Source of the DNA: Roseateles saccharophilus
Lineage (GTDB): Bacteria > Pseudomonadota > Gammaproteobacteria > Burkholderiales > Burkholderiaceae_C
Length of the DNA: 64,000 nt
Assembly: GCF_004342485.1 (NCBI RefSeq)
Contig: NZ_SMBU01000002.1
Span: 248,001 to 312,000, forward strand
Direction of reading: 5' to 3'
The notes beneath the pieces are model-generated. The model was given only the letters and a program-made list of their open reading frames with translations, made no database searches and was not told the origin of the DNA. How positions within the stretch are numbered: the first letter of the stretch is position 1; each line of letters begins with the position of its first letter. Positions 16,765 to 63,632 of this stretch are shown one piece after another. A program made the translations under genes and the position numbers.

Positions 16765-17523
16765 CTACATCGGCTTGAAGCGCGGCTGGAAGCTCTGGCT
16801 GACCTGCAGCCGGGTCCGGCCGTCCTTCAGCAGCACGTCCATGCCGCCAAGGTGGCGCTCGACGCGTGCCACCTGTGCGAGGTTGACGACGACGGCGCGG
16901 TGGATCTGCCAGAACTGACCGGGGTCGATCTGGGCCAGCAGCTCGCGCAGGGACAGGCGCAGCAGGAACTCGCCGTCGGCCGTGATCGCACAGGTGTATT
17001 TGTTGTCGCTGCGGAAATGGCTCACGTCGGCCACCATCACCAGGTGCAGCCGGTCGGCCTGCGAGGCCTGCAGCCAGCGCAGCGGCGCGGCCGGCGCGGC
17101 CGCAGGCAGTGCGGGCGGGGCCCATTGCTGCAGCCAGCGCGCCAGCTCCGCCGGGGGCAGCAGCAGCCGCTGCTGCAGGCGCACCAGCGTCTCCCGCAGC
17201 CTCTCGGTGGACAAGGGCTTGAGCAGATAGTCCACCGCGCCCTGGTCGAAGGCGGCCAGGGCGTGCGCGTCGTAGGCGGTGACGAAGACGACGTGGCACA
17301 GGCCCTTGATGTGCCGCGCCAGCTGCAGGCCGTCCAGCCCCGGCAGACGGATGTCGACGAAGACGATGTCGGGCCGCAGCTCCAGCACCAGGGCCAGGCC
17401 GCGCTCGCCGTCCTCGGCCTCGGCCAGCAGCTGCGGCTCAGGCCAGAGCTCGGCCAGGCCCTCGCGCAGGCGCTGGCGGGGCAGGGCCTCGTCCTCGATC
17501 AGCAGGGCGGTGGGATTCTTCAT
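16765..17523 (-). CDS. LytTR-family response regulator
   Basis: 252 residues. Receiver domain (about 1-120) with acidic IEDE near the start, phospho-acceptor Asp57 in FVDIRLPG, conserved Thr in VTAYD and Lys in LLKPL. LytTR DNA-binding domain (about 150-250) with HFRSDNKYTCAITADGEFLL and FWQIHRAVVVNLAQVARVE. Such regulators bind direct-repeat operators and control few, often adjacent, genes. ATG at 17523 overlaps the kinase stop (ATGA), so the pair is one translational unit, placed at the distal end of the long glycosidase array. Confidence 0.93.
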   Translation of the reverse strand: MKNPTALLIEDEALPRQRLREGLAELWPEPQLLAEAEDGERGLALVLELRPDIVFVDIRLPGLDGLQLARHIKGLCHVVFVTAYDAHALAAFDQGAVDYLLKPLSTERLRETLVRLQQRLLLPPAELARWLQQWAPPALPAAAPAAPLRWLQASQADRLHLVMVADVSHFRSDNKYTCAITADGEFLLRLSLRELLAQIDPGQFWQIHRAVVVNLAQVARVERHLGGMDVLLKDGRTRLQVSQSFQPRFKPM

Positions 17524-18500
17524 GAGGGGGCGGGCAGTTCGATGCGGGCGCTGACGCCGCCTTCGTCGCGCTGCTGCAGGATCAGGCGGGCTTCTCCGGC
17601 GTAGAGGCTGGCCAGGCGGTCGCGCACATTGGCCAGACCCACGCCCTGGCCCGCGGTGGCACTGCCGGGCTGCAGGCCCGCGCCGCTGTCGCGGACCTCC
17701 AGCACCAGCCGCCCGGCCTCGCGGAGCGCCTGCACGTCGATGCACCCGCCCCGCGGCAGGGGCTCGATGCCGTGGCGCACGGCGTTCTCCACCAGGGTCA
17801 GCAGCATCATGGGCGGCACGGCGTCGGCCTCGCAGCCGGGCTGCGCCTGAACGTGCACCTGCAGGCGGGCACCCAGGCGCGTGCCCATCACCGTCAGATA
17901 GGCGCGCGCCAGGGCCAGCTCACGCTCGACAGTGGACAGCGGCTCGCGCATGGAGGGCAAAGCCAGACGCAGATAGTCGTGCAGCTCGCCGAGAAATCGC
18001 TCGGCCGTGGCCGGCTGGCTGCGGATGAGCTGCTGCAGGCTGGCCAGCGCGTTGAACAGGAAATGCGGCTCGACCTGGGCCTGCAGGGCCTTCAGCTCGG
18101 ACACGCTGACCTGGCGCGACAGCTCGGCCATGGCCGCCGCCTGCTCGGCCTGGGCCAGGCGCAGGGCCACGGCCTGCTCCTCGCGCCAGCGCCACCAGCG
18201 CAGCGGCAGGTGCATCAGCAGCGCGAAGGCAAAGGCCGGCAGCGCGGCGCGCAGCGTATCGAACAGGCTGGGGATCGGTGGAGGCCAGAGCGCCACCCCC
18301 AGCCATGCGCCGCCGGCCGCCGCCAGCAGTACGCCCAACGGCCACCATCGCCAGGGCAGCACCAGCCAGGCGGCGCTGTAGGCCAGCCACAGCTGGGCAG
18401 CGACCGTCGGCCAGCGCGCGTTCGGCCATTGCCAGCGCAGCAGCGCCCAGGCCGCCCAGAACAGCAGGGCGGGCGGCAGAGCCTTGCGCAGTGCGAGCAT
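17520..18500 (-). CDS. Sensor histidine kinase, LytS/YpdA type (His_kinase PF06580-like)
   Basis: 326 residues. About four transmembrane helices occupy residues 1-105, with no periplasmic domain of note. A coiled linker leads to the phospho-acceptor motif QVEPHFLFNALASLQ, with His near residue 146. The ATP-binding domain shows MMLLTLVENAVRHGIEP (N box) and DSGAGL plus GQGVGLANVRDRL (G boxes). Partner of the LytTR regulator that overlaps it. Lies only 6 bp behind the secreted-protein gene at 18507, so it is probably co-transcribed with the carbohydrate genes. The lack of an extracellular domain suggests sensing inside the membrane or through a partner. Confidence 0.93.
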   Translation of the reverse strand: MLALRKALPPALLFWAAWALLRWQWPNARWPTVAAQLWLAYSAAWLVLPWRWWPLGVLLAAAGGAWLGVALWPPPIPSLFDTLRAALPAFAFALLMHLPLRWWRWREEQAVALRLAQAEQAAAMAELSRQVSVSELKALQAQVEPHFLFNALASLQQLIRSQPATAERFLGELHDYLRLALPSMREPLSTVERELALARAYLTVMGTRLGARLQVHVQAQPGCEADAVPPMMLLTLVENAVRHGIEPLPRGGCIDVQALREAGRLVLEVRDSGAGLQPGSATAGQGVGLANVRDRLASLYAGEARLILQQRDEGGVSARIELPAPS

Positions 18501-18506
18501 GGCAGC

Positions 18507-19184
18507 TCAGTCCAGCGCGGGGTTCTGCAGCGGCGCGGGCGGGTACCTGCGCGACTGGGCGTTGGTCCAGGCCAGCGTGCGGCGGATCTCCGGCAGGTCG
18601 ATGCCGAGGCGCGTCGTGGTCGGTGCCACCTCGGGGCCGACGATCTCGAAGTGCAGGTCGCGCGCCCAGACCTGGCCTTCGCCGGTCAGGGCCAGTCCGA
18701 AGTCGATGCGCGGCGTGTCGGCCGGCACGTCCAGCACGACGCTGACCTCATGCCAGCCGCCGTCGGCCGGCACGGCCGTGCCCGGCGGCACCTGCTTTTC
18801 CGCGCCGGGCCGGGCGCCCATGAGGCCGGCCAGTTGGCCCGGGTCGCCCTCACCGAGAAAGAGGCCTGCCCAGCCACGCAGCGACTCGGCCTTCAGCTGG
18901 CCGCTGAAGCACACGCGCTTGCCGCCGTAGCCGGTGACCGATTGCTCGGCCACGCCGAAGCTCATCGGGCTCATGGGGACGGTCGTTCCGACGGAATGGA
19001 CCGTCAGGCTGGGCGTGCCGCCGGCCTCGCTGGCGGGGTCGATGCCGATCTCGTAGCCGCCCACAGGGCTCGAGGCGGGCGGCGACGAGAAGACGAACCA
19101 GCCCGCGGGTACGCGAAGGCCGGCGGCGCTGACGCTGAGCACCACGGCGGCCAGCGGGGCGATCAGGAGGATGCGGTAGTTCAT
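18507..19184 (-). CDS. Secreted jelly-roll-like protein of unknown function, copy 1
   Basis: 225 residues with a Sec signal peptide (MNYRILLIAPLAAVVLSVSA). The body is all-beta and contains YEIGIDPASEAGG, GYGGKRVCFSGQLKAESLRG, WHEVSVVLDVPADTPRIDFG and GQVWARDLHFEIVG. I recall this pattern from a widespread uncharacterised domain also found as an accessory part of some bacterial transcription regulators, where GKRVRFSAWVR and GWAGLWMRVDG-like segments recur. That fold would be compatible with carbohydrate binding. Paralogous to the next gene at 19222, 37 bp away, and 6 bp before the histidine kinase. Could be a periplasmic sugar sensor or binding protein; no catalytic motif seen. Confidence 0.75.
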   Translation of the reverse strand: MNYRILLIAPLAAVVLSVSAAGLRVPAGWFVFSSPPASSPVGGYEIGIDPASEAGGTPSLTVHSVGTTVPMSPMSFGVAEQSVTGYGGKRVCFSGQLKAESLRGWAGLFLGEGDPGQLAGLMGARPGAEKQVPPGTAVPADGGWHEVSVVLDVPADTPRIDFGLALTGEGQVWARDLHFEIVGPEVAPTTTRLGIDLPEIRRTLAWTNAQSRRYPPAPLQNPALD

Positions 19185-19221
19185 GTCGAATGTCCTTGGC
19201 GTGGGTGACGTGGTCGCGGGT

Positions 19222-19899
19222 TCATTGCAGCGACAGGTTCTGCGGCGGGCTTGGTGGCTGGTTGCGAAGCTGCTCGCGGAACTGTTTCTGAGCCGCCCCC
19301 AGCCACACCCTGAAGGCCGCGGCTGCTTCCACGCCGAAGCGCTGGGTCGTCAGCGGTACGTCCTCCCCAACGGTTTCGAGCTTCACGCCCCGGGCCCAGA
19401 CCTGGCCGCTGCCCACCAGGGCCAGCCCGACGCTGATCGCGCCACTGCCGTCGTCGGCCGGGATGTCGGCCACCACGCTCACGTCGCACCAGTCAGGGCA
19501 GCCGGCCGCGCCGAGCGGCGGCACCTCATCGAACTCTGGCGCCAGGTACGACAGAAAGAGCAGCTGGTAGCTCGAGGCGACCACGATGCCACCCCAGCCG
19601 TCCGCGGCGGCCGACTTCACCTGCGCGGAGAAGCGCACGCGCTTGCCGGCATAGCCGGGCACGAACTGGCTGATGCTGCCGGCCTCGTGCGCCGCGCGCT
19701 TGCCGATGGACCTGACGGTCAGTGCGCGCTGACCGCTGGTCTCGGTCTCGGGCGCGACGCCGGCCTCGTGCGTGGCGCCGCTGGGCCAGGCATAGCTGGC
19801 GCCGGCAATCCAATTGGAGGGCTGGCGCAGCTTGTCAGCGCCGCTGGCGCTGAGGGCCAGCGCTGCCAGCGGGATGGCGAGGAGGGAGCGGTAGTCCAT
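19222..19899 (-). CDS. Secreted jelly-roll-like protein of unknown function, copy 2
   Basis: 225 residues, exactly the length of its neighbour at 18507. Signal peptide MDYRSLLAIPLAALALSASG, then HEAGVAPETETSG, GYAGKRVRFSAQVKSAAADG, GWGGIVVASSYQLLF, DVSVVADIPADDGS and GQVWARGVKLETVGEDVPLT. The order of blocks is the same as in copy 1, but the middle loop differs most, as expected if ligand specificity diverged. The C-terminal ~30 residues form a charged helix ending PPSPPQNLSLQ; copy 1 ends similarly with PPAPLQNPALD. No enzyme motif. Located between the GH29 gene and copy 1. Confidence 0.75.
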   Translation of the reverse strand: MDYRSLLAIPLAALALSASGADKLRQPSNWIAGASYAWPSGATHEAGVAPETETSGQRALTVRSIGKRAAHEAGSISQFVPGYAGKRVRFSAQVKSAAADGWGGIVVASSYQLLFLSYLAPEFDEVPPLGAAGCPDWCDVSVVADIPADDGSGAISVGLALVGSGQVWARGVKLETVGEDVPLTTQRFGVEAAAAFRVWLGAAQKQFREQLRNQPPSPPQNLSLQ

Positions 19900-20054
19900 G
19901 GCTTCATACTTTCGGAGTGGGGATGGCCGGCAGTCTGGTGGCGATGGCCTTGCGCTGCCCTGGCGATGCGACCGGCCAGCCCGGCGGCGGACAAGCCAGG
20001 CCCTGTAGCGACGAAGGCCTCAGCCGGCGCGGCGGTCGTGTCGGGCTTGGCCGC

Positions 20055-21395
20055 TCACCGCGGGTCCGCGGCTGTGCTGATCTCCAGTACGGTGACCGGC
20101 TCGCCGCGCTGCGCAACGGGCACCGAGAGGGTCAGCCCTTGCGGCCCGTCGCGCCAGGCCACTTCGTCGCCCGACAGGTTGCGTACGCCCGTCACCCGCT
20201 TCGGCAGCGCGGGCAGGTGCAGCTCGTCGCCGGGCCAGCGTTGCACGAAAAGGTAGAGCTTGTCGCCGCGCTGCGTCATGCCGTAGACGCCGTCCGCCGG
20301 CTGCAGCGGGCCTGGCCGCGTGTCGTAGACGGCCTGCCCGTAGCGCTGCAGCCAGCGCCCCACGCCGCGCAGCGTCTCGCTCTGCTTGGGCGGCACGACG
20401 CCGTCGGCATCGGGGCCGAGGTTGACGAGCAGATTGCCGTTGCGTACGACGGCGTTGACCAACTGGGTCACCACCTGGTCAGCGGTCTTGACCTGGCCCT
20501 CGGGCACGTAGCCCCAGGCGCCGTTGATGGAGAAGGTCTTCTCCCAGGGCCGCGCGCGGATGGGGCCGCCGATCGGCGCATCGCCTTCCTCGGTGTCGAA
20601 GTCGCCCTGCCAGCCCGAGCGCGGGTTGATGACGACCTGGGGCTGCAGCTTGCGCACGATGCGGTTGAGCCTGTCCGGCTCCCAGAACCAGGCGGCGTCG
20701 GCGTCGCTGCCCTGGTGGGCCAGCCAGCCGCCGTCGTACCAGAGGACGTCGATGCGGCCGTACTGGCTCATCAGTTCCTGGATCTGGCCATAGGTCTGCT
20801 GCTTGAACTCGCGTGCGTTTTCCGGCATCTCCCTGGGGTGGAAATAGGCCGGGAAGCGCCAGTCCAGCGGCGAGTAGTAGAGGCCCACGCGCAGGCCGTG
20901 GCGGCGCACCGCCTGCACCCAGGGGGCGACGAGGTCGCGCTTGGCGGCCGAGTGCGGCGCATCGAACTGGCCCCAGCTGGCCTTGCTGGCGAACAGCGAG
21001 AAGCCGTCGTGGTGGCGGGCGGTCAGCACCATGTAGCGGGCGCCGCCGTCGGCGGCCAGCTGGGCCCAGGCGTCGGGGTCGTAGTGCTGCGGGTTGAAGC
21101 GCTCGGCCAGCTTGGCGTATTCGGCCGCCGGCACCTTGTCGTTGAACATATGCCACTCGCCCTTGGCGGGGATGGCGTAGAGGCCCCAGTGCACGAAGAC
21201 GCCGAACTTGGCGTCACGCCACCAGGCCATGTCCTGGGCCGGCAGCAGCAGGTCGGGGGCCAGTGTCGGGTCGGCGTTGGCGCTCTTGGTGGCCGAGCGT
21301 TGCTCGTCGCTGGGCTGGGGCTCCGCGGCGCGCGCGCTGCTGCCGAGCAGGCTGCAGGCGAGGGCGCAAAGGGTGAGGAGGCGGGAAGGCTTCAT
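20055..21395 (-). CDS. Alpha-L-fucosidase, GH29
   Basis: 446 residues with signal peptide ending SSARA-AE. The GH29 barrel shows DAKFGVFVHWGLYAIPAKGE, YMVLTARHHDGFSLF and the nucleophile region RIDVLWYDGGW (Asp near residue 221). Near the barrel end, VRNGNLLVNLGPDADG is the family-typical closing motif, followed by a small C-terminal beta domain. Hydrolyses terminal alpha-L-fucosyl residues with retention, likely in the periplasm. In a xyloglucan context it would act on fucosylated side chains or fragments. Starts 14 bp behind the GH2 stop. Confidence 0.9.
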   Translation of the reverse strand: MKPSRLLTLCALACSLLGSSARAAEPQPSDEQRSATKSANADPTLAPDLLLPAQDMAWWRDAKFGVFVHWGLYAIPAKGEWHMFNDKVPAAEYAKLAERFNPQHYDPDAWAQLAADGGARYMVLTARHHDGFSLFASKASWGQFDAPHSAAKRDLVAPWVQAVRRHGLRVGLYYSPLDWRFPAYFHPREMPENAREFKQQTYGQIQELMSQYGRIDVLWYDGGWLAHQGSDADAAWFWEPDRLNRIVRKLQPQVVINPRSGWQGDFDTEEGDAPIGGPIRARPWEKTFSINGAWGYVPEGQVKTADQVVTQLVNAVVRNGNLLVNLGPDADGVVPPKQSETLRGVGRWLQRYGQAVYDTRPGPLQPADGVYGMTQRGDKLYLFVQRWPGDELHLPALPKRVTGVRNLSGDEVAWRDGPQGLTLSVPVAQRGEPVTVLEISTAADPR

Positions 21396-21409
21396 GGATT
21401 GCTCGTGGT

Positions 21410-24265
21410 TCAGGGGGGCGTGATGTCGAAGGCCAGTTCGGCCGGCGCCAGCCCGTCGCCGATGGCGCGCAGCGTTGCACGGCCGGCTTCGCCGGTGGAC
21501 TGCAGGATGAGCTGGGCCTGGCCGTTGAAGACGCTGCGCTGCCAGGGCCCGGCGGGCGTGGTGATGCGCAGCGTGGCCCAGCGGCGGCCGGACTGGGCGG
21601 CGTCGAACAGCGCGCGCGTGCCGCCGGCGGGCGTCGGGAAGACCAGGGACAGCGTCACTTCCGTGTCGGCCGGCTCAAGGTCGAAGGCGGCCATGCCGGC
21701 TTCCTGGCGCAGCTTCACTTCGCGACCGTCCAGGTATACGCGCGTGCCGAGCGCGACGTCGCCGATGAACAGCATCAGGCGCTGGCCGGCCGGGGCATGG
21801 CGGCTGAGCCGGGCCTGCACGAGGTTCCACGCGCGGTCGGCCGGCTGCTGCTCGGGCGGTGTCCAGGCGAAGGGGTCGCGCCAGCCGGCGTCGCTGGTGT
21901 CGGCCAGCAGCGCCGCGGCGTCCTCGGGACGCTCGATGCCGCGGTGGCGCCAGCCGGTGGCAGCGGCATAACGGTGCAGTTCGGTGGGCTTGTCGGCTTC
22001 ATGAGAGCCGGGGTCGCCATTGCCCATGCCGATGAGGCGCATGGGCCCCGTCGTCTCGAAGGCGATGCGCTGGCCGGCGGTCGGTACGACGCGGCCCTCG
22101 CGGTCGACGACGGTCACGCGCACCAGCGCCACGTCGTCGCCGCCCGCGCGCAGCTTGGCTCGGTCCGCGCTCAGGCCCACGGCGTTGCCATCGCCGGTGG
22201 TGGCCACGGTTTCGGTGGCGACGAGCTGGCCGGAGCGGTAGCCGCGCGCGGTCAGGTTGCCGGGTTCATAGGGCACGCTCCATTGCAGGTGGCCGTAGCG
22301 CTGCAGCGCCTGGCGGCCCAGCGAGCGGCCGTTGAGCAGCAGCTCGACCTCGTCGGTGTTGGCATAGGCGCGCACATCGATGGGCTGGCCCTCGCGACCC
22401 GGCCAATTCCAGTGCGGCAACAGGTGCACCATGGGCTCGGCCGTCCACGCGGCCTTCAGGTAGTAGCCGCTGTCCTTCGGCGCGCCGGTCGTGTCGAGCA
22501 TGCCGAACTGCGACGAGATGGCGGGCCAGCCGAAGGGTGTGGTCTCGCCGCGGTAGTCGAAGCCGGTCCACACGAACATGCCGGCCAGGAAGGGGCGTTC
22601 GGCGTTGAAGCGCCAGCCCTCCTCGATGGAAGCGGTGTAGGGCGGTCCCGTGCGCTTGTCGTAGGCCGCGATGTGCACGCGCGCCGGATCGTCGGCGTAG
22701 GCGCCGCGCGTGGCGTGGGTGGCACCTTCCTCGGTGACGACCATGGGCCGGTCGGGGAAGCGGCGGTGCATGGCGTCGATGTCGTGCTGGCCCTTGTAGT
22801 TGAAGCCGATCACCTGCGAGCCGACGGACGTGCCCTCGGCATAGCCGGAGCTGGACGCGGCCTGCGTGGCCGGCCGCGTCGGGTCGAGGCGGCGCACGAT
22901 GGCCTGCATCTCGCGGGTCAGCCGGGTGCCGATCTCGCTGTTCTCGATGGCCCATTCCTCGTTGCCCACCGACCAGAGGATGACGGACGGGTGGTTGCGG
23001 CCGCCTCGCACCATGCGCTCCAGCTCGCTGCGGATCTGCGGGGCGGTGCCCATCATGCGGTGCTCGTCGAGGACGAGGATGCCAAGGCGATCACAGGCCT
23101 CCAGCAGCTCGGGCGTGGCCGGGTTGTGCGACGAGCGGATGGCGTTGACGCCGATGGCCTTGAGCATTCTCAGCCGCGCCTCGTGCATGCCGTCGGGCAG
23201 GGCGACGCCGAGGCCGGCATGGTCCTGGTGGTTGTTGACGCCCTGCAGCTTGACGTGCTGGCCGTTGAGGAAGAAGCCCTGGTTGGCGTCGAAGCGAATC
23301 GTGCGGATGCCGAAGGGCGTGTCGACGCGGTCGACGACCTCGCCGCCGCGCTTGACCAGGGTGGTCAGCGTGTAGCGCTGCGGCGTTTCCAGCGACCAGA
23401 GCTGCGGCGACTTCACGCGAAGTTGGGCGGCCACATCCAGGCTTGCGTCGGCGGCCACGCGGCGGGTCGGCACGCTGGCGCGGGCGACGATGCGGCCAGC
23501 CGGGTCGCGCAGCTCGTGCTCCAGTGCGAAGCTCTCGTCCGCCTTGCCGTCGTTGCGCACCGTTGTGTCAACCGCCACGTCGGCGCGGTCGCTGTCGACG
23601 CTGGCGCGAACGAAACTGCCCAGCGGCGCCACATGCAGCGGCCCGGTCTGCGTCAGCCAGACATGGCGGTAGATGCCGGCACCTTCGTACCACCAGCCTT
23701 CCTGGGTCGTCGCGTCCACGCGTACCGCGACGACGTTGCGACCGCCGAAGTTCAAGTAGTCGCTGATGTCGACCTGGAAGCCGGAATAGCCGCTGGCCTC
23801 GTGGTGCAGATAGTGGCCGTTGACCCAGACGACGCTGTCCCGGAACACGCCGTCGAACTCCAGCACGATGCGCCGGCCGCGCGCGGCCGGCGGGATGTCC
23901 AGCTCGCGGCGGTACCAGCCGACGCTGTTCTCGGGGAAGCCGCGTCCAACCGCCTTCATGCCATGCTGGGAGCTGCCGCGCTCGCTGAACGGCAACTCCA
24001 CCGCCCAGTCGTGCGGCAGGTCGACGCGGCGCCAGGGCCTGTCCTCGAAGTCCGCCGCGGCGGGGCCGTCGCCGAAGCCGGCCTTGCCGAAGAAGAAGGG
24101 GCGCAGGCCATGGTCGAAGTCCTGGGCGGGGGCGGTGGCATGGCCGAGCGCGAAGCGCCAGCCGTCGTCGATGCGGCTGCGCTGGCGCGGTGCGTCGGCG
24201 GCGGAAGCGCTGCCCACGGCCATGAGCCACGCGATGGTCAAAGGGAAGAGAAGGCTGGGTCGCAT
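21410..24265 (-). CDS. Beta-galactosidase-like GH2 glycosidase with C-terminal beta domains
   Basis: 951 residues. Signal peptide MRPSLLFPLTIAWLMAVGSA, then the GH2 sugar-binding domain (RIDDGWRFALGHA, LPHDWAVELPF), Ig-like domain, and the TIM barrel (GVNNHQDHAGLGVALPDG, ILWSVGNEEWAIE). The acid/base Glu of GNEE is near residue 437 and the nucleophile Glu in MVVTEEGATHATRG near residue 511. After ~600 come DUF4982-like and further beta domains. Related proteins are exo-beta-galactosidases. Here it probably removes beta-galactose from side chains, parallel to GH35 and GH42 in the same locus. ATG at 24265 selected because it opens the signal peptide. Confidence 0.88.
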   Translation of the reverse strand: MRPSLLFPLTIAWLMAVGSASAADAPRQRSRIDDGWRFALGHATAPAQDFDHGLRPFFFGKAGFGDGPAAADFEDRPWRRVDLPHDWAVELPFSERGSSQHGMKAVGRGFPENSVGWYRRELDIPPAARGRRIVLEFDGVFRDSVVWVNGHYLHHEASGYSGFQVDISDYLNFGGRNVVAVRVDATTQEGWWYEGAGIYRHVWLTQTGPLHVAPLGSFVRASVDSDRADVAVDTTVRNDGKADESFALEHELRDPAGRIVARASVPTRRVAADASLDVAAQLRVKSPQLWSLETPQRYTLTTLVKRGGEVVDRVDTPFGIRTIRFDANQGFFLNGQHVKLQGVNNHQDHAGLGVALPDGMHEARLRMLKAIGVNAIRSSHNPATPELLEACDRLGILVLDEHRMMGTAPQIRSELERMVRGGRNHPSVILWSVGNEEWAIENSEIGTRLTREMQAIVRRLDPTRPATQAASSSGYAEGTSVGSQVIGFNYKGQHDIDAMHRRFPDRPMVVTEEGATHATRGAYADDPARVHIAAYDKRTGPPYTASIEEGWRFNAERPFLAGMFVWTGFDYRGETTPFGWPAISSQFGMLDTTGAPKDSGYYLKAAWTAEPMVHLLPHWNWPGREGQPIDVRAYANTDEVELLLNGRSLGRQALQRYGHLQWSVPYEPGNLTARGYRSGQLVATETVATTGDGNAVGLSADRAKLRAGGDDVALVRVTVVDREGRVVPTAGQRIAFETTGPMRLIGMGNGDPGSHEADKPTELHRYAAATGWRHRGIERPEDAAALLADTSDAGWRDPFAWTPPEQQPADRAWNLVQARLSRHAPAGQRLMLFIGDVALGTRVYLDGREVKLRQEAGMAAFDLEPADTEVTLSLVFPTPAGGTRALFDAAQSGRRWATLRITTPAGPWQRSVFNGQAQLILQSTGEAGRATLRAIGDGLAPAELAFDITPP

Positions 24266-24279
24266 CCTGTGCCTCGTGT

Positions 24280-25488: not shown

Positions 25489-25507
25489 GCGGATGATCCT
25501 CGGGAAG

Positions 25508-27900: not shown

Positions 27901-27915
27901 CGAGATGCAGCCCTA

Positions 27916-29124: not shown

Positions 29125-29169
29125 GTGCAGGTTTCCGTTGAGTTGCGATGGCAGGAGGAGGCGATGGGC

Positions 29170-31131: not shown

Positions 31132-31148
31132 GTCAATTGGTTTTGTGG

Positions 31149-33200: not shown

Positions 33201-33202
33201 GA

Positions 33203-55089: not shown

Positions 55090-57542
55090 GCACCCGTCCC
55101 GAAATCGGCGGGTGCCACGCGGGCGCGGCCCTGGGCGTCCAGTCGCAGCGCCAGGCGTCGCCCGCGGCAGCGCAGCGCGACGCTGGCGTGCGCAGGCCCG
55201 CGCAGCTGCAGCCGGCGCAGCCGCCCGTCCTGCCAGTCGACGTCCACCTCCACGCCGCCATGGGCCCGCACGCCATGCAGGCGCCCCTGGGGCCAGGCCT
55301 TGGGCAGGGCGGCCAGCAGGTGGATCTCACCACCCCATGACTGCACGATCATGTCCAGGATGGCCGCCGCGCCGCCGAAGTTGCCGTCGATCTGGAAGGG
55401 CGGGTGGGCGTCGAACATATTGGGGTAGGTACGCGCCGGCCCGAGCAGCCCCTGCAGGATCTTGTAGGCGCGCTCGCCATCGCCCAGGCGGGTCCACAGC
55501 GCCAGCCGCCAGGCCGTGGCCCAGCCAGTGCTCTCGTCGCCGCGGGCGTTCAGCGTCACGCGCGCGGCCTGGGCCAGTTCGGGTGTGTCGCGCACGTTGA
55601 CCTGCTCGCTGGGGTAGACGGCGTAGAGGTGGGAGACGTGGCGATGGCGCTGGTCGGCAGCGCCCGCGTCCCAGTCCTCCAGCCATTCCTGCAGCTGGCC
55701 CTGCGCGCCGATGCGGTCGGCCGGCAGGCGCTCGCGCGCCTGGCGCACGGTTTGCGAGAAGGCCGTGTCCACCGGGCCCAGCTGCTGCTGCGCCGCCAGC
55801 GTCGCGTCGAAGAGGTCGCGCAGGATCTGGCGGTCCATCGCCGGCCCGGCGCACAGGGCCACGCCGGCGTGATGCTCGTTCTCGGGCGACAGCGAGGGCG
55901 ACGTGACCAGGCCGTGGCCTTGCGAGTCCTGGATCAGCGTGTCGAGGAAGAACTCCGTGGCGCCGACGAAAAGCGGCACCAGGCGCCGCAGCAGGGCCTG
56001 GTCGGGCTGGTACTGGAACTGCTGCCACAGCGTCGTGCAGAGCCAGGCGCCGCCCATGGGCCACATGCCCCACAGCGGGCCGTCGATGGGGGCCGTGGCC
56101 CGCCACAGGTCGGTGTTGTGATGGGCCATCCAGCCGCGCGCGCCGTAGCTGTCGCGGGCGGTGCGGGCGCCGGTGACGGCCAGGTCCTCGACCATCTTCA
56201 GCAGCGGCTCAAGACATTCGCCGAGATTGGCCGGCCCCGCGGGCCAGTAGTTCATCTCGGTGTTGATGTTGATCGTGTACTTGCCTTCCCACGGCGGGTG
56301 CAGGACTTCGTTCCACAGCCCCTGCAGATTGGCCGGCTGGCTGCCCGGCCGCGACGACGACATCAGCAGATAGCGCGCGTACTGGACGTACATTGCCGTG
56401 AGCGCGGCGTCGGGCTGCTGCGGCACGTCCTGGATGCGGGCGTTGGTCGGGCGTGCATTGGCCTCATGGCCGCCGAGGTCGATGTGCAGGCGGCGGAACA
56501 GCGCGCGGTGGGCCTTGACGTGGTCGTCGCGCAGCCGGGCGAAGGGCTTGCGCGCGGCCATCGTGGTGTGCTGGCGCACGGTCGCGACCGGGTCGCCGCC
56601 TGTGTCCTGGTAGTTGACATAGCTGGTCTCGCCGGCCACCAGCAGCGTCAGCCGGCGTGATCCCCGCACGCGCAGCTGGTCGCCGATGGCCTCGATCTGC
56701 CCGTCGCCCGCCGCCTGCACGCGCAGCGCGTAGCGCAGCTGGCCCGCGATGCCGAAGGCAGACACATTGCGGCCCTCGATCAGCAGCGCGTCGCTGCCAT
56801 CGGCGCGGACCGTCAGCGCGGCCGGCCGCTTCTCGGCATGGAGGGATTCGCGATGATCCCAGGGCGCGCCGACGTAGACCACGCCGTGGGCGTCGTACTT
56901 CGTGTCGCCGAAGCCGCCGTAGGGCTGGTAGTCGGGGTGGCGATAACCGAGGTCCAGGTTGATCACGCCGTCGCCCACGACCTCCAGGCGGATCACGGTC
57001 ACCTGGTCGGGTTCGCTACAGAAGGCCTCCCGCTGGTGGCGTGCGCTGCCGTCGAAGAAGCTGGTCAGCGCGATGGCGCTGTCGAGGTCGAGGCTGCGGT
57101 GGTAGCGCGCCGCGCCTTTGAGGCCGGGGAAGTCCAGCAGCAGGTCACCTGCGCCGCTGAAGGGCATCTGCTTGATCGGCCGGCCCATCAACGCCTCGGA
57201 GGTCAGCTCGTTGGCCTCCTTCCAGCGCTGCTGGGCTATCAGCTGGCGCACTTGGGGCAGGGCGTCGCGGAACTTGGGGTTGTCCGCGACGTAGGGGCCG
57301 CCGCCGTAAAGCGTGTCGATGTTGAACTGCAGGCGCTCCTGCGCCGCCCGGCCGAAGACCATGGTGCCCAGACGGCCGTTTCCCAAGGGGAGGGCTTCGA
57401 TCCAGGGGCCGGCGGGTTGGTCGTACCAGAGTGTGAGCGCGTCGTCGGCCAGGCGCGCGGCGCCGCTGCGCGCAAAGGCGGGCAGGGCGGACAGGCTGCA
57501 GGCCAGCGTGCTGCCGACGATGAAGCTGCGGCGGGTGCTCAT
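55086..57542 (-). CDS. GH95 alpha-L-fucosidase (alpha-1,2) or alpha-L-galactosidase
   Basis: 818 residues, Tat-like signal (MSTRRSFIVGSTLACSLSAL). N-terminal beta domain with LWYDQPAGPWIEALPLGNGR, then the (alpha/alpha)6 barrel. Catalytic set by comparison with the Bifidobacterium enzyme AfcA: Asn425/Asn427 in TININTEMNYW, Glu554 in TSPSLSPENEH, Asp719 in FQIDGNFGG; all present. Inverting hydrolase that removes Fuc-alpha-1,2-Gal, the terminal unit of the F side chain of xyloglucan. Length fits the family. ATG 57542 overlaps the SGNH gene stop (ATGA) and its own stop overlaps the GH43 start. Confidence 0.94.
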   Translation of the reverse strand: MSTRRSFIVGSTLACSLSALPAFARSGAARLADDALTLWYDQPAGPWIEALPLGNGRLGTMVFGRAAQERLQFNIDTLYGGGPYVADNPKFRDALPQVRQLIAQQRWKEANELTSEALMGRPIKQMPFSGAGDLLLDFPGLKGAARYHRSLDLDSAIALTSFFDGSARHQREAFCSEPDQVTVIRLEVVGDGVINLDLGYRHPDYQPYGGFGDTKYDAHGVVYVGAPWDHRESLHAEKRPAALTVRADGSDALLIEGRNVSAFGIAGQLRYALRVQAAGDGQIEAIGDQLRVRGSRRLTLLVAGETSYVNYQDTGGDPVATVRQHTTMAARKPFARLRDDHVKAHRALFRRLHIDLGGHEANARPTNARIQDVPQQPDAALTAMYVQYARYLLMSSSRPGSQPANLQGLWNEVLHPPWEGKYTININTEMNYWPAGPANLGECLEPLLKMVEDLAVTGARTARDSYGARGWMAHHNTDLWRATAPIDGPLWGMWPMGGAWLCTTLWQQFQYQPDQALLRRLVPLFVGATEFFLDTLIQDSQGHGLVTSPSLSPENEHHAGVALCAGPAMDRQILRDLFDATLAAQQQLGPVDTAFSQTVRQARERLPADRIGAQGQLQEWLEDWDAGAADQRHRHVSHLYAVYPSEQVNVRDTPELAQAARVTLNARGDESTGWATAWRLALWTRLGDGERAYKILQGLLGPARTYPNMFDAHPPFQIDGNFGGAAAILDMIVQSWGGEIHLLAALPKAWPQGRLHGVRAHGGVEVDVDWQDGRLRRLQLRGPAHASVALRCRGRRLALRLDAQGRARVAPADFGTGA

Positions 57543-58837
57543 CGCGCCACCCCCATCAGCTGCTGCAGCGTCGGTGCCATGGCGCGCTGCCAGATCTCGT
57601 AGCCGCGCTCGTTGGGATGCAGCAGGTCGGGCATGACCTCCTTGCTGAGCGTGCCGTCGGGTTGAAGCAGGGCCGCGCCGATGTCCAGGAAGTGGATCTG
57701 GCGGCCGTCGGCATAGCCCTGGATGATCTGGTTGACGCGCTGGTTGATGCCGCGCAAGAAGTCGTCGGGCTTCTCGCCACGCGGGAAGATGGCTAGCAGC
57801 AGGACCTGCGCGTTTGGCAAGCGCCGGCGGATCTCGTCGAGCAGACGCTTGATGCCGGCGGCCGTGGTCTCGGGGTTCTCGGCGCGGTGGCCGCTGTTGT
57901 TGGTGCCGATCATCAGCACGACGGCCTTGGGTGCGAGGCCATCGATCTCGCCATGCTGCAGGCGCCACAGCGCGTTCTCAGTGCGGTCACCGCCGAAGCC
58001 CAGCGCCAGCCCGTGGAGGGGGGCGAAATGACGCTGCCAGACCTCGCGGCCCTCCTTCTCCCAGCCCTGGGTGATGGAGTCGCCGATGAAGACGACTTCG
58101 GGCGGCGTGCCGGCGGCGAGGAGCTGGCGCTTCTCTTCCAGCTTCTGCTCGTGGCGAGGCTTCCACCAGTCGATGGACCAGGACTCGTTGAGCATGGCCG
58201 GCGTGACCGACTCGCTGCGGTAGTCGGGGCAGGCCAGGCCCGGCACGGACGCGCGGGTCAGGCGCACATTGGCGACGCTGACGCGACCGCTGCCGGTGCC
58301 TTCGAGCCCAAAGGGCAGGGTGACGGCGGAAAAGTCGGCCCCCTCGCGGGCGAAGCAGCTCATGGACAGGGCCACGTGCTGCCAGCCCTTGCCGGCCCAG
58401 CCGCGAGCCGGCTCAAGGAGGTTGACGGCGCGCTCGCAGCCGGCGCCGCAACCCAGCTTCACGCTCACGCCGCCCTGCGCGAGCACGCCGACGTCGAGGT
58501 CGAATTCCAGCATGCCGTCGGCGTAGGGGCGCAGGTCGAGCGGCTTGCGGCTTTCGATGCGGAGCATGGACTGCCACAGGTCGCGCCATTCGAAGGTCAG
58601 TGCATCGCGCCGGCCGGCGCCGACGTGGGCGCTGGCGCCTGCGAAGGCGTTGCCGCCATGGTCGGCCTTGGGTGCCGGCGCGACGACGCCGTCGCTGGTC
58701 AGCTCGGCCTGGGCTTCCCAGTGGCCGACGGTGACGCGCCAGGCGTCGGTCGGGGCGGGCAGGATGACGAGGTCCTGGGCATGTGCCAGAACGGTGGCGG
58801 CAAGCAAGGCGGATGCGATGAGGTTGCGGTACTGCAT
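57539..58837 (-). CDS. SGNH/GDSL esterase with N-terminal ExoP-type galactose-binding domain
   Basis: 432 residues with signal peptide MQYRNLIASALLAATVLAHA. Residues ~25-200 resemble the galactose-binding-like domain seen at the C-terminus of ExoP-type GH3 glucanases (AWRVTVGHWEAQAELTSDGV). The SGNH domain (~215-430) shows FIGDSITQGWEKEG (Ser ~254), GFGGDRTENALWRL, LMIGTNNSG and the Asp/His block DLLHPNERG. It belongs to the PAF-acetylhydrolase-like group that includes carbohydrate acetylesterases. Probable second deacetylase of the locus, perhaps acting on glucose- or arabinose-linked acetyls, as in solanaceous xyloglucan; that is inference. Confidence 0.85.
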   Translation of the reverse strand: MQYRNLIASALLAATVLAHAQDLVILPAPTDAWRVTVGHWEAQAELTSDGVVAPAPKADHGGNAFAGASAHVGAGRRDALTFEWRDLWQSMLRIESRKPLDLRPYADGMLEFDLDVGVLAQGGVSVKLGCGAGCERAVNLLEPARGWAGKGWQHVALSMSCFAREGADFSAVTLPFGLEGTGSGRVSVANVRLTRASVPGLACPDYRSESVTPAMLNESWSIDWWKPRHEQKLEEKRQLLAAGTPPEVVFIGDSITQGWEKEGREVWQRHFAPLHGLALGFGGDRTENALWRLQHGEIDGLAPKAVVLMIGTNNSGHRAENPETTAAGIKRLLDEIRRRLPNAQVLLLAIFPRGEKPDDFLRGINQRVNQIIQGYADGRQIHFLDIGAALLQPDGTLSKEVMPDLLHPNERGYEIWQRAMAPTLQQLMGVAR

Positions 58838-58855
58838 GGAAGCGATGGGAGGGGG

Positions 58856-60511
58856 TCAGCGGTAGCGGCCCAGCTTGACCTTGATGACGCGCGGATTGGC
58901 CGTGAAGTTCAGGCCCCAGTCGACCTGATCGCCGTTCCAGCGGCGCTCCATGACCCACTGGCCGTCGGGGCCGAAGCGGCCTTCCTCGACGTGGTCGATG
59001 AGCACCCTGCCGCTGGCCTCGGCGTCGTCGATGCGCACGCGCGCCTGCTGGCCGACGAGGATGAATTCGTCGTCGCCGAGCTGGGCAATGGCCACGCCGC
59101 CGGAGGGCGTCGCGGCATGGGCGGGCAGCTCTTTCTGATTGCCAGGCCATTCGCGCTCGCCGAACTGCCACTGGCCGAAGGTCACGTGGGCCTTCCAGCC
59201 CTTCATCGCGACGAACTGGTCGGCATGGTCGTCGGGCTCGGCGACGCCATGAGTGCGGCCTTCGTAGGCCCAGCGTGCCCACTGGCGCTGCATGGGCCGG
59301 AAGGCGGCATAGACCCTGGCGAAGGGCTCGATCATGCCCTTGTCGCTGGCCTTGGCGCCGAGGGGGAAGTTGGCGTAGTCGAAGTAGTCGATGCCGAAGG
59401 GCGCTACACCCAGGCTGCCGCGACCGAGGATTTGATAAACGTAGCGGGCGTATGCGGCGGCGTTGCCGAGTTCGGGCACCCACAGCGGGTTGTCGGCGCG
59501 CTGAAACTTGTCCAGATGTGCTGCGACCTTGACCGACTCGGGGTGATAGATGTCCGGGCCGACGATGTCGATATGGGGCGCGACGGCCTTGTAGATGTCG
59601 ATGACGTCGTAGGTCGGGCCGCCGCTGGCGAAGTCCTTGTTCCAGGGCTTGGGCGGCTGCTCCAGCGGGTCGCGCAGTGCGTTGTTGACGTACATCGGCA
59701 GGTTGTGCACGGCGCGGCCGGCCCTGGCGATCTCCTCGATGTAGCGGGCGATGGCCCAGGCATGGAAATACTCGTCGGCGTAGTCACCATAGACCTCGCG
59801 CCAGCTGCCCGAGCTCTTGGCCACCGGCTTCTTGCGGGCCAGGACCGCGGCCGGTACTGGTTGCTCGAAGGCAGCTTGTGCGGCCTTGCCGAAGTCGCGC
59901 GCCAGGCCGAAGGTGCCGACCTCGTTTTCCACCTGCACCATCAGCACGGTGTGCTGATGGTCATCCACCCGCTTCAGATGCGTCATCAGCGCGGTGAAGG
60001 CGCGCTTGTCGGCATGGAGCGTCGCCTCGCCGAAGGGGGACAGGCAATAGCTGTCCTTGCCGGTCGCGTCGACCATGCGCGGGAAGCGCCGGTTGTCGAA
60101 CTTGACCCAGGCCGGTGTGTATTGGGGGCTGGTGTTCTTCCAGGTGCCGAACCACAGCAGCACGACGCGCACCTGATGCTCGCGCGCCTGCTTCAGCAGG
60201 GTGTCGATGAAGGAAAAGTCGAAGCGGCCCTCGACCGGCTCGATCTGCTCCCAGGCCACCGGCACCTCGACTGTGTTGGCGTGGATGTCGGCGATGGCGG
60301 GCCAGACCTTGTCCAGGGCCTTGGGATAGTTGCTGGAGTTGTGGACCTGGGCGCCGAGGATGGTGAAGGGCTGGCCGTCGACGAGCAGGGCGTGGCGGTC
60401 TCCCTCGTGTACGAGCTGTGGACGCTCTGCCGGCGCGGCGACGGCGAGGGTCCACGGGAACAGGAGAACCAGCGCCGCCATGCGAAGGCGGTTGGAGCGA
60501 AGCTTGGGCAT
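58856..60511 (-). CDS. Beta-galactosidase GH35 (DUF5597 type)
   Basis: 551 residues with signal peptide ending LAVAAPA. Barrel: [37 protein letters not shown], acid/base Glu in [12 protein letters not shown] (~194), nucleophile Glu in [10 protein letters not shown] (~344). The C-terminal domain ([20 protein letters not shown]) is the DUF5597 type. The same layout occurs in the Cellvibrio xyloglucan-locus beta-galactosidase Bgl35A, which removes galactose from L side chains. First glycosidase after the TonB receptor; a 12-bp hairpin lies just before its start and no clear ribosome-binding site is visible. Confidence 0.92.
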
Positions 60512-60522
60512 AAGTCGGCGTG

Positions 60523-60548
60523 CCCGTCCGCGCCGTGGCGCGGACGGG
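60523..60548 (-). promoter_or_regulatory. Perfect 12-bp hairpin between the TonB receptor and GH35 genes
   Basis: CCCGTCCGCGCC and GGCGCGGACGGG are exact inverted repeats separated by 2 nt. No T-run follows in the leftward direction, so it is more likely an mRNA-stabilising or processing structure than a terminator. It ends 11 nt before the GH35 ATG. Confidence 0.6.
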
Positions 60549-60557
60549 GAAGAAGGC

Positions 60558-63500
60558 TCAGAACGAATAGCGCATTTGCACGGTGTAGCGCCGGCCGGTG
60601 TAGAAGGCCGACCTTTGCATCAGGCCGATACCCTGCTGCATGTACTGCTTGTACAGGGCATCGTTGAGGTTCTGCGCTTCGAACGAGACGCCGAGGTCGT
60701 CGTTGACCTTGTAGTGAACGCCCATGTCGACCTGGCCGTAGGCTCCGCCCCAGGTCGGCAGCGAGAAGTTCGACGAGAACGGCTTCTTGTAGTTCGGGCT
60801 GTTGGGGTTGTAGTCCCAGCCGTTGCCGAAGTCGTCGTTCGTGCCGAAGGCATTGGCCGCCTGCAGGTACTTCGAGCGCCAGCTGTAGGCAATGCGTGCC
60901 GAGAGCGGACCGTAGTCGTAGAGCAGGGCGAGGTTGAACGCCCTGCGCGACATGCCCGGCAACGGCAGGTTGCCGATGACGTGGCCGTTGGTGTCGCAGC
61001 CGTAGAGATTGCGCGCCAGCTCCGTTTCGACCGTGCCCCGCGGCGTGCACCACTCGAGGTTGATCTTGTCGTACATGGTCATGGTGCTGTCGATGAGGGT
61101 GACGTTGCCCGACACCCCAAAGCCCGACAGCCAACCCGGCAGCTTGTCGAAGTACTGCTGGTAACCCACCTCGATGCCGCGCGTCTTGCCCTTGGCGCCA
61201 TTGACGGGCGCGGTGATCGCGAAGTCATGCGGCTGGCCGCTAGTGTCCGAGACCCGGTAGTAGCCCGTCTGGCCAATGACGACGTCCCTGAGCTGCTTGT
61301 CGAACACCGCCACCGTGAAAGAACTGGTCGGGCCGAAGTAATACTCCGCCGTCAGGTCGAGGTTGTTCGACTTGACGGGCTTGAGCATGGGGTTGCCCCG
61401 GGCCGACCCGGTGTAGGAGATCGAGTCGACCACCGTGTGGCCGCTGGCATCCTGGTGCGTCTGCACGGTCTGAGAGATCGTCGTGTAGGCCTGCATCTGG
61501 TACAGGTCCGGCCGGGAAACACCCTTGGACAGCGCCATGCGGTATTGCAGCTTGTCGTTTGCCTTCATGCGAAGGTTCAGGCTGGGCAAGACGCTGGAGT
61601 AGGCGTTGTGGAAAGTTTGCAGCTCGGCCTTGGGTTCGAGTACGGGCACGCCGGGGTTCTGCTGGTAGTTCGGCACCGTGAGGATGGTGTTGCCCACCGC
61701 GTCGGCCTGCGTATAGACCGCGCGAACGCCCACGTTGCCGTCCACCGGATAGGCAAGGTCGTCGAAGCTGAAGCGCAGCTGGCCGTAGACCGCCTGGGTG
61801 CGTTCGTTCTGCTCGTTGCGGCCCTTGTCGTCGCCGTATTGGGCCGGGTTCCAGTGGGCCCAGCAGGGGCTGACCTGGCAGACCAGGTCGGCATAGCCGT
61901 GGACTTTCTTGAAACCGGCGTCGTTGAGCAGGTTCATGTCCGGCACGACGATGGGCGCCGGCATCGGACCCTTGCCGTTGAAGAAATTGTTGAAAGGCTG
62001 GATGTGGGTGTCGCCCTTGAAGCGCGGGTCACTCATCCAGGCGAGCTGGCTGAACGGCTGCCATCCATCCTTGCCCACGGCCCACGGCTGCGTGATCTGC
62101 GCCCACTCGGAGTCGTGTGTCGACTGGGTGATTGCACCGCGATGGGTCAGTCGGAAGCCGAAGCGCAGGTCGTTGAGCACCGCGTCGTCGAAGTTCAGCT
62201 TGCCATCGACGCGCCACGCGGTTTCGCTGGCCGTCGCATGGTCCCGGTGCTCCTGGGCGGAGCCCCAGTAGTAGTTGCTCGCGTCAGCGAGGAAGGCACG
62301 GTCAGCGGCGTCGAAATTGAAGCTGGGCGTCGACGTCGTGAAATCGACCTGCTGCTTGGGCATCCAGCCGCCGGTGCCGATCAGGTAGTCGGTGCCGTCG
62401 CTGATGGCCTTGATGTGCTGAAGGTCGGAGCGCAGAGTCAGGCTGGGCGACACCTTCGCGGTGATGTTCCAGGCGATGTCCCGGGTGTCCGCCGTGCGGC
62501 CGGCGTGACGCGAAAGGGTGGCAAAGCCCAGGCCGTGGATGGCCCCGCCGGGCGCGCCGTCCCCCGGGGCCCGGAGCGTCCCGGTCAACAGCGCGTCATT
62601 GGCGTCGAAGGTGGCGCCGGGGTCGAGCGTGATTTGGGTGTTGGTGCCGCCCACGGACATGCCGTTTTCCCGCGTGTCCATCTTGTACTTCGAGCGGAAG
62701 TAGGTGAGCGAGGACGAGACGTCGTTCTTGCGCCACTGCAGCGCGCCGTATAGGCCATCGCGCGTGCGGTCGAAGTCGCTTGCGCTCCAGGAGCCGCCCT
62801 TGCTGATCCAGCGCAGCTTGCCGCTGGTGTCGCCGATGAGGGCATCGGTGCGCGGGTAATACGGCTCGACGAACACGCCGTTGGCGCGCGTGGCGATCTT
62901 GGAGTGCGCGATGTCGAGCAGGGCGCCGATCTCGCCCAGGTCGGTCTTCCAGCGGTTGGACACCAGTCCCGAGAACGACGGCTCGGCCTTGCCGCCGCGC
63001 AGTTGCTGGCGCGAGGTCTCGGCGGAGAAGGCCCCCTTGAACCCCTTGAAGTCGAAGGGCAGGGCGGTTCGCAGGTTCACCAGGCCGCCGATGGCGCCTT
63101 CGACCTGTTCCGCCGACGGGTTCTTGTAGACGTCGACGCCGGCCATCAGCTCGGGCGGCACGTCCTCGAAGCTCAGCGAGCGCCCGCCATTGGCGGAGAA
63201 GGAGTCGCGGCCGTTCAGTTCGGAACGCACGTAGCTCAGGCCGCGCACACTCACGCCGGTGCCCTCGGCGGCGAAGTGCATGACGCCATCGCCGACGCCC
63301 TGTTGGGGATCGGCGCGGTTCAGCGTGCGGTCGATGCTGACGCCGGCGATGCGTTGCAGCACCTCGGTGACGGATTTGTCGGGCAGCTTGCCGATGTCGT
63401 CCGCGACGATGGAGTCGACGACCTCGTCGGAGTTCTGCTTGATCTTCTGGGCCGATTGCAGCGCCGCGCGCTGGCCGCTGACGATGACGGTCTCGATCTT

Positions 63501-63632
63501 TTGCGGTTTGGCTTCGGCCGCCGAGGCGGCGGAGGCTGGCGCCGGGGCGGCCTGGCCCCAGGCCACGCCGGTGCAGAGCAGGGCCGCTTGTGCAGCGGCC
63601 AGCGAGATGGCGGTTCTGCGATGCTTGTTCAC
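60558..63632 (-). CDS. TonB-dependent outer-membrane receptor, carbohydrate type
   Basis: 1024 residues. Start is a GTG with AAAGGAG 6 nt upstream (63632); the frame is open upstream but without a ribosome site. Signal peptide ends near GVAWGQ. A TonB-box-like IETVIVSG leads into the plug ([40 protein letters not shown]), the signature of the Xanthomonas/Caulobacter receptor family TIGR01782. The beta-barrel ends with the C-terminal Phe of VQMRYSF, needed for outer-membrane assembly. Predicted to import xyloglucan oligosaccharides. First gene of the leftward array; TGGTC palindromes lie upstream. Confidence 0.93.

Follow-up and report, generated by a model that had tools for sequence, protein, structure and literature searches.

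A stretch of 64,000 nucleotides from Roseateles saccharophilus (hereafter the window) holds an array of 26 genes on one strand at 16765–63632, and the question it raises is which polymer these genes serve and what switches them on. We consider it likely, from sequence comparison, that the array is a large xyloglucan utilization locus (XyGUL) under a divergent pair of GntR-type regulator genes, that it shares a regulon with a probable operon for L-fucose oxidation, that a fucose-derived acid is the inducer, and that the four genes at its downstream end are a separate cassette. The window lies on contig C2 of a 5.77 Mb draft genome (G000), 12 kb short of the right end of that contig. An initial annotation of the same sequence had anticipated the substrate, the enzyme number and the host, and had overlooked the GntR pair and operators at the right edge, the integrase and tRNA gene at the left, and the poor fit of the alpha-galactosidases.

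Organization of the array

Minus-strand genes, 26 in a row, occupy 45,996 of 46,868 bp (98%). Gaps are mostly below 50 bp, as first described (21 of the 25 intergenic gaps), the remaining four being 70, 135, 155 and 165 bp. The initial annotation had the direction right and counted 25 genes, whereas its own list sums to 26. Reading frames were picked by third-position GC, which is high in the chosen frames, and starts by signal peptide and overlap. Pfam profiles assigned 21 of the 26 genes to carbohydrate-active enzymes, in agreement with the large number claimed, plus one TonB-dependent receptor. Nearly every family named at the outset was recovered; of two supposed GH43-type genes, the one at 25508–26950 is a GH43, whereas that at 26947–27900 matches just a BT_3657-like N-terminal domain (29.5 bits, cut-off 27). 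In Pfam order from the promoter end, the genes are as follows.

60558–63632 (−): TonB-dependent receptor, 1024 amino acids, GTG start, first gene of the array (PF00593/PF07715; TIGR01782, 584 bits against a cut-off of 310)
58856–60511 (−): GH35 beta-galactosidase (PF01301, 33 bits; PDB 3u7v, 7kmn, 8fa4 and 5jaw/4d1i (Bgl35A), E down to 1.9e-179)
57539–58837 (−): SGNH/GDSL esterase with an Exop_C galactose-binding-like domain (Pfam)
55086–57542 (−): GH95, alpha-L-fucosidase type (PF22124, 538 bits; 81–84% identical relatives in seven genomes of the genus)
53551–55089 (−): GH43, no obvious signal peptide by eye (PF04616, 217 bits)
52028–53554 (−): GH51, alpha-L-arabinofuranosidase type (PF06964, 148.9 bits, mainly the C-terminal domain)
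49447–51957 (−): GH74 (b), presumed endo-xyloglucanase with an N-terminal module of ∼94 amino acids (Sortilin-type repeat profile; 59.5% identical to GH74 (a))
47641–49281 (−): GH5, presumed endo-xyloglucanase, N-terminal module as in GH74 (b) (top PDB match 3zmr, E 5.1e-76)
45853–47505 (−): GH29 (b), alpha-L-fucosidase type (Pfam)
43910–45823 (−): GH97, retaining alpha-galactosidase group (top PDB matches 3a24 and 5e1q; NF053844, 423 bits, under its cut-off of 800)
41518–43869 (−): GH74 (a), presumed endo-xyloglucanase (Sortilin/BNR profiles)
38856–41516 (−): GH3 with a PA14 insert, beta-glucosidase or beta-xylosidase type (Pfam; NF041776 xylosidase, 808 bits, under its cut-off of 1250)
35863–38811 (−): GH31-PA14, alpha-xylosidase relative with PA14 C-terminal of the barrel (Pfam order; alignment to 7kmp/5jou)
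33203–35866 (−): GH31 (a), alpha-xylosidase relative, ATGA overlap with the preceding gene, start chosen by eye (PDB 5jou BoGH31A, 7kmp, 2xvg Xyl31A)
31149–33200 (−): GH42, beta-galactosidase type (Pfam)
29170–31131 (−): CE20-type acetylesterase (PDB 7kmm, E 2.9e-142; 9h4u, 9ega)
27916–29124 (−): GH27 (b), alpha-galactosidase type (top PDB matches 6f4c and 1uas)
26947–27900 (−): BT_3657-like putative arabinosidase (PF22847; NF052546, 62 bits, under its cut-off of 500)
25508–26950 (−): GH43 with an F5/8-type (CBM32-like) domain (Pfam)
24280–25488 (−): GH27 (a), 83% identical to GH27 (b) (Pfam)
21410–24265 (−): GH2 beta-galactosidase, GalA type (NF041462, 1059 bits against a cut-off of 900)
20055–21395 (−): GH29 (a), alpha-L-fucosidase type (Pfam)
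19222–19899 (−): U2, jelly-roll protein with an N-terminal hydrophobic helix, cassette gene 1 (AlphaFold2, Foldseek)
18507–19184 (−): U1, paralogue of U2 (38%), cassette gene 2 (sequence comparison)
17520–18500 (−): LytS-type histidine kinase, cassette gene 3 (PF06580, PF02518)
16765–17523 (−): LytTR response regulator, cassette gene 4 (PF00072, PF04397)

Such an array is not plausibly a product of chance, given the same-strand run of 26 genes, the 21 carbohydrate-active enzymes and the rearranged homologous arrays in sister genomes described below. No SusD profile was matched among the 26 array genes or in the scanned genes beyond the receptor, and a Bacteroidota-type SusC/SusD polysaccharide utilization locus was thus not found here. 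A promoter and terminator scan of 15000–34000 returned signals at chance level.

Related loci

The array was compared with 299 genomes of the family, 20 genomes of the genus and the best 80 of 561 named GH95 loci. A first scan of genome contigs with a single protein found no relative. GH74 matches occurred in 26 of the 299 family genomes, weak partial matches included, and eight regions fetched from outside the genus contained no other gene of the window except a 28–30% GH5 match in two. Within the genus, the synteny search that had been proposed recovered the same gene set in other orders: in G299 (C2:104479-138075), in G156 (C28:868855-898431 and C33:26491-53413) and in G030, over the two short contigs C9 and C10. 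By these comparisons the locus is modular within the genus. G156 is Pelomonas sp. Root1444; Pelomonas is a betaproteobacterium, in keeping with the host class first given.

A second, smaller locus is present in the R. saccharophilus genome itself (C13:10494-28207), with the order TonB-GH35-GH74-GH95-SGNH-GH43-GH5 and 32–66% identity gene by gene. Its counterparts are on G156 C23, G030 C5 and G303 C4, the latter two without a GH74 match, and it is possibly the older copy in the genus. Aquabacterium terrae (L160) has TonB, GH35, SGNH, GH95, GH43, GH51, GH5 and GH29 genes in the order found here (43–81% identical). CE20, GH35, GH31 and GH95 genes occurred together in seven of the best 80 of the 561 named GH95 loci (L188, L190, L208, L216, L221, L230 and L238), all from Xanthomonas, Lysobacter, Pseudoxanthomonas, Luteimonas or Lysobacterales.

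Evidence for xyloglucan as the substrate

The closest solved structures of the GH31, GH35, CE20 and GH5 products are xyloglucan enzymes, in agreement with the main substrate originally proposed. They include 3zmr, which we take to be BoGH5A, and 7kmm, presumably the Xanthomonas acetylesterase; the genes with Sortilin/BNR profiles are likewise assumed to be GH74. PF01301 gave just 33 bits for the GH35 product, and its identity is secured by the PDB match at E 1.9e-179. GH31, GH35 and GH95 genes are clustered with a TonB receptor, as in proteobacterial xyloglucan loci, and GH74 and CE20 are both in the cluster, as in the Xanthomonas type. The evidence supports a large Xanthomonas/Cellvibrio-type xyloglucan utilization locus encoded by the genes at 20055–63632.

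The two GH31 proteins share the same three closest structures (BoGH31A, 7kmp and Xyl31A), in different order, and both retain DWQYW where 7kmp has DWSYW in the alignment. In GH31-PA14, the region of the N-terminal PA14 of 7kmp is missing and PA14 lies between the catalytic and C-terminal parts instead. GH31 (a) aligns across the PA14 region of BoGH31A, yet Pfam shows no PA14 there. A 64% identical relative of GH31-PA14 sits with GH29 and GH95 in a locus of a Verrucomicrobia bin (L199).

Judged by family, the GH74 and GH5 enzymes would cut the xyloglucan polymer and the TonB receptor would import the oligosaccharides. These would then be dismantled by the CE20 and SGNH esterases, GH95 and GH29 fucosidases, GH35, GH42 and GH2 beta-galactosidases, GH51 and GH43 arabinosidases, GH31 alpha-xylosidases and GH3, with localization and activity presumed.

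Alpha-galactosidases in the array

Judged by their PDB neighbours, GH97 and GH27 (b) group with alpha-galactosidases, enzymes for which we know of no role in common xyloglucans. The three alpha-galactosidases (two GH27 and GH97) do not fit the usual xyloglucan enzyme list and are unexplained. They could belong to a second, co-transcribed module added to a xyloglucan core and directed at another plant glycan that ends in alpha-galactose or arabinopyranose, namely arabinogalactan or the side chains of pectin; its members would be both GH27 genes, GH97, GH43-CBM32, the BT_3657-like gene, GH2 and GH42. In favour of such a composite array, besides the unexpected specificity, are the rarity of GH27 and GH97, found even as weak matches in just three of the best 80 of the 561 named GH95 loci, and the segment 20055–27900, most of which is little shared with sister loci. 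However, GH97 and GH27 (b) are interspersed with GH74, GH31 or CE20 genes in G299, in both loci of G156 and in G030, and the Pfam profiles of the 26 array genes include no dedicated galactan- or mannan-backbone family. We therefore hold a composite array to be possible, tentatively, and keep a single xyloglucan locus as the preferred reading.

The two GH27 genes flank the GH43/BT_3657-like pair and look like a fairly recent duplication. A third GH27-like gene (15245–16717), encoded by the plus strand, converges on the array, and the open reading frame preceding it has a match to a NikA-like mobilization protein, under the cut-off.

A divergent GntR pair and its predicted operator cluster

Two FCD-type GntR genes are located just to the right of the TonB receptor start, divergent from the array, with the following features between and beyond.

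63766–63820 (no strand): three predicted GntR-type operator palindromes at 63766, 63780 and 63810 (steps of 14 and 30 bp), with a CTTTGCCA box at 63791
63879–64000 (+): first FadR-type (FCD) GntR gene, running past the window end (PF00392+PF07729; whole gene at L009:3879-4661)
L009:4755-5489: second FadR-type GntR gene, wholly beyond the window (PF00392+PF07729)

The products combine a GntR winged helix with an FCD domain, as in the FadR subfamily. Regulators of this subfamily bind a TKGT/ACMA motif in which GT and AC are 3 nt apart, and their effectors are acids (PMC4494728). The palindromes here have the printed spacing and are near candidate regulated promoters; those at 63766 and 63810 are perfect and that at 63780 has two mismatches. 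DgoR, ExuR and LldR share the FCD-type domain, the palindromes with 3-nt spacing and the acid effectors proposed here (PMC4494728). As far as that paper describes them, the present system differs from these in its three phased sites with a CTTTGCCA box and in having a polysaccharide locus as its target.

GntR orthologues lie 227–889 bp from the first locus homology in seven genomes (our own, G299, G300, G303, G030, G304 and G311). In all seven, the three-site cluster is kept, with steps of 14–15 and 30–32 bp, together with a common stretch TGGCAAAGTGGC. In G156, one GntR gene is inside the C28 locus and one is 11 kb from the C33 locus. Within the array itself, we counted one perfect operator-type site and 13 with one mismatch or fewer, against 0.2 and 9.9 expected per 46.9 kb from a Markov model of the array. 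The one perfect internal match (57418) is in the GH95 coding sequence, with similar matches in the GH95 of five relatives.

The divergent GntR pair appears the better regulator candidate than the two-component system at the other end, and would control the locus from its front by binding the conserved operator cluster.

A proposed shared regulon with a probable L-fucose oxidation operon

The sequence TGGTCNGACCA occurs at four places in the R. saccharophilus genome: in the GntR gap; 3.3 kb further on, ahead of a halogenase-like gene (L009:7077); at an operon on C47; and on C12. The C47 operon encodes an ABC ATPase, a permease, a binding protein, an aldo/keto reductase, a fuconolactonase-like hydrolase, a zinc dehydrogenase and a mannitol/tagaturonate-type dehydrogenase. 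A composite pattern, CTTTGCCA-N9-16-GGTnnnACC, was drawn from seven GntR gaps and our own C47. It is found twice in the genome, in the GntR gap and at the front of the C47 operon.

Over the 20 genomes of the genus, the composite pattern has 20 places, confined to eight genomes. Nine are in a gap beside GntR (eight facing GH35, GH95 or TonB, one facing SGNH), six are ahead of the ABC/lactonase operon, two are 700–870 bp before GH74 matches, and three are elsewhere (G156 C27, G299 C12 and G304 C14). Eight of the 20 are there by construction; of the 12 places not used in building the pattern, nine are at locus or operon promoters. Eight of the nine genomes in which a GntR relative reaches 50% identity have the pattern, against none of the 11 others, the 50% line being our choice and the counts taking no account of genome relatedness. 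Across the same groups, TGGTC[A/T]GACCA has 21 sites in the nine GntR genomes and three in the 11 others.

In four relatives, a C47-type operon is on the locus contig itself, at a distance of 3.5–14.4 kb (G299, G303, G156 C33 and G311). The aldo/keto reductase is listed near the locus in G299 and G156 only, and an overlap filter may hide it in G303 and G311; our own C47 and C2 are separate contigs. A perfect TGGTnnnACCA lies ahead of the operon in our own genome, G299, G156 and G311, and one with a single mismatch in G303. We consider the C47 operon a probable L-fucose oxidation operon that forms one regulon with the locus. Given the acid-responsive subfamily and the linkage of sites and operon, the favoured inducer is L-fuconate or an acid further along the oxidation of fucose. 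Fucose freed by GH95 and GH29 would be oxidized to L-fuconate or the 2-keto-3-deoxy product, and the fucose-derived acid would relieve repression by GntR, giving positive feedback.

A number of points weigh against this reading. TGGTCNGACCA is not over-represented in the genome, with four sites compared to 11 for a reversed-pattern control; its sites are therefore notable by place and not by number. The reversed composite pattern has nine matches over the 20 genomes, and C/G-centred sites (12 versus 7 across the two groups) have no clear link to GntR. Since the patterns were chosen after the promoters had been seen, the composite and A/T-centred counts are partly circular, and since the eight genomes are related, the conservation of the sites is partly inherited. 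The lactonase scores 222 bits for L-fucono-1,5-lactonase, under the cut-off of 400, and the reductase has family-level matches only, so that fucose is likely rather than shown. On G156 C27, no GntR gene is listed beside the locus; two one-mismatch sites ∼31 bp apart were seen by eye ahead of GH35. The second locus on C13 has no operator within 600 bp of its TonB gene, and the Pfam profiles of the 26 array genes include no inner-membrane transporter. A perfect GntR-type operator precedes one of the ten U2-U1-kinase-regulator cassettes considered below, in G303. Because the composite pattern was built from eight of its own 20 matches, we lowered our confidence in the reading by a small step and still regard it as likely.

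The GntR pair might instead sense another sugar acid, such as galactonate or xylonate, with the C47-type operon serving that sugar. The transporter profiles of the operon are for allose, ribose, xylose and arabinose, none above cut-off, and its two further dehydrogenases would also suit this alternative. L-fucono-1,5-lactonase is, however, the lone strong family match of the lactonase, albeit below cut-off, and the array carries three fucosidase-type genes. We judge another sugar acid to be rather unlikely and retain a fucose-derived acid as the favoured inducer. It is more speculative, and we think it quite unlikely, that two things hold jointly: that a fucose-derived acid acting through the paired GntR and three-site operator is the inducer logic of the locus, and that the recurring GH27 and GH97 reveal an undescribed alpha-galactosyl (or beta-L-arabinopyranosyl) end on some plant xyloglucans.

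The U2-U1-kinase-regulator cassette

The initial annotation had counted the two secreted proteins and the two-component system among the members of the locus. We rejected this membership, because the cassette does not adjoin such a locus in eight of the ten genomes that carry it (our own, G156, G299, G303, G030, G300, G304, G311, G309 and G314); it adjoins a xyloglucan locus in our own genome and G299 only. Among the other eight, all of them draft assemblies, six carry cassette and close locus on separate contigs, whereas in G309 and G314 the nearest relatives are GH95 genes of 54% identity or less. A diverged cassette with one U gene is found in G302 and G312, with no locus beside it, and U matches occur also in G307, G310 and G313. 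Among the relatives, the sequence around the cassette is of three or more dissimilar kinds, none of which matched the 6 kb beyond our own cassette. The cassette is a separate unit, adjacent by happenstance.

The U2 model is a jelly roll (AlphaFold2, mean pLDDT 85.7). Foldseek matched it to CBM4/CBM16 and to a wide range of other jelly rolls, with a best E of 1.5e-6 and a TM-score of 0.45 by query. Pfam gave nothing usable on U1 or U2, with two single-member matches above E 0.1.

That the kinase, LytTR regulator and two jelly-roll proteins form a xyloglucan sensor is very improbable: the cassette is on the same strand and directly downstream of the locus here and in G299, the U2 model resembles CBM4/CBM16 folds among others, and G303 has its operator, but the 155-bp gap to the array, the diverged forms with no locus beside them and the distribution over the ten genomes all speak against it.

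Comparison with known loci

The Bacteroides ovatus XyGUL includes a hybrid two-component regulator as well as binding proteins on the cell surface, neither of which we found in our array. Our GH5 and GH31 (a) have their best matches in 3zmr and BoGH31A of that species. Like the present locus, the B. ovatus locus combines an endo-xyloglucanase and exo-enzymes with a TonB receptor (PMC4285296).

The Cellvibrio japonicus XyGUL resembles ours in its TonB receptor and GH31, GH35 and GH95 exo-enzymes, which were placed in the periplasm (PMC4285296). As described there, it has four genes, without an endo-xyloglucanase, beta-glucosidase or regulator, and the proteins that sense xyloglucan were called unknown (PMC4285296). 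On that point, left open for Cellvibrio (PMC4285296), the present locus offers a concrete candidate for xyloglucan sensing with mapped predicted operator sites.

In the Xanthomonas XyGUL, as here, a TonB receptor, GH74, GH31, GH35, GH95 and a CE20-type esterase are clustered (PMC8245568). It has two receptors, four GH enzymes and one esterase (PMC8245568), compared to one receptor and 21 enzymes in our array. The additions are GH5, GH3, two GH29, GH51, GH43, GH2, GH42, two GH27, GH97 and the linked GntR pair; the main text on Xanthomonas does not mention GntR and reports no beta-glucosidase gene in the locus (PMC8245568).

Co-localized endo-xyloglucanases have been noted in individual Pelomonas and Massilia strains (PMC11892949). 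The betaproteobacterial host, first called unusual, has these precedents in print. The XyGUL-like clusters of these strains are mentioned in one sentence, which gives no gene content, regulator or operator (PMC11892949). The literature searched, which excludes closed journals, yielded no account of this gene set, nor of a xyloglucan locus under a GntR/fucose regulon.

If the proposed induction is correct, these bacteria would read the xyloglucan polymer through one end sugar; in a fungus, Trichoderma, a fucose-responsive factor has been reported (PMC12370193). The set of 21 enzymes, including an alpha-xylosidase relative of altered domain order, would be a source of enzymes for complex xyloglucans.

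Genomic setting

To the left of the array, and outside the locus, are two features of another kind.

12467–12559 (+): tRNA-Ser(GCT)
12757–13971 (+): tyrosine integrase

An integrase beside a tRNA gene is found in genomic islands, and a 97% copy of this integrase is on our own C26. Each of the 20 genomes of the genus contains the lysC-tRNA-Ser stretch, and the sequence past the tRNA is of several kinds in the 14 that are readable. At the same tRNA, integrase relatives were seen in G308, with an internal stop, and in G300, covering 266 of 404 residues. From these comparisons, tRNA-Ser(GCT) is an integration hotspot.

In the seven relatives that have a close locus, this is never beside tRNA-Ser; it is on another contig or, for G156 C28, ∼180 kb away. 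The position of the array beside tRNA-Ser and the integrase, seen in our own genome only, therefore looks recent. The integrase at tRNA-Ser and the other placement of the locus in relatives make transfer of the entire array on a mobile island possible. Against this, no exact direct repeat of the tRNA 3′ end was found in C2:232001-323922, a range that stops with the contig 12 kb beyond the window, and a tRNA-Ser neighbour taken from G309 maps to another contig here (C58).

Neighbouring genes and a shared N-terminal module

The region beyond the GntR pair (L009:5513-15794) carries two tryptophan-halogenase-like genes, another TonB receptor gene, and genes for a PfkB kinase and a PA14 protein. 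Operator-like sites lie ahead of the first halogenase-like gene, and halogenase and TonB genes are near the locus in several relatives.

The N-terminal modules of GH74 (b) (51613–51894) and GH5 (48667–48927) are 69.8% identical over 86 amino acids, with a conserved Cys and a WSWSGCG motif. The module was matched in seven of the 299 family genomes, one of these weakly. Profile searches gave a weak PTN_MK_C match (E 0.0097, 8 of 11 members) and a single PDB profile match at E 0.17, and its structural model has a weak likeness to Ig/PKD folds (best Foldseek E 0.008). Its role may be in binding or anchoring, as a module of a new kind.

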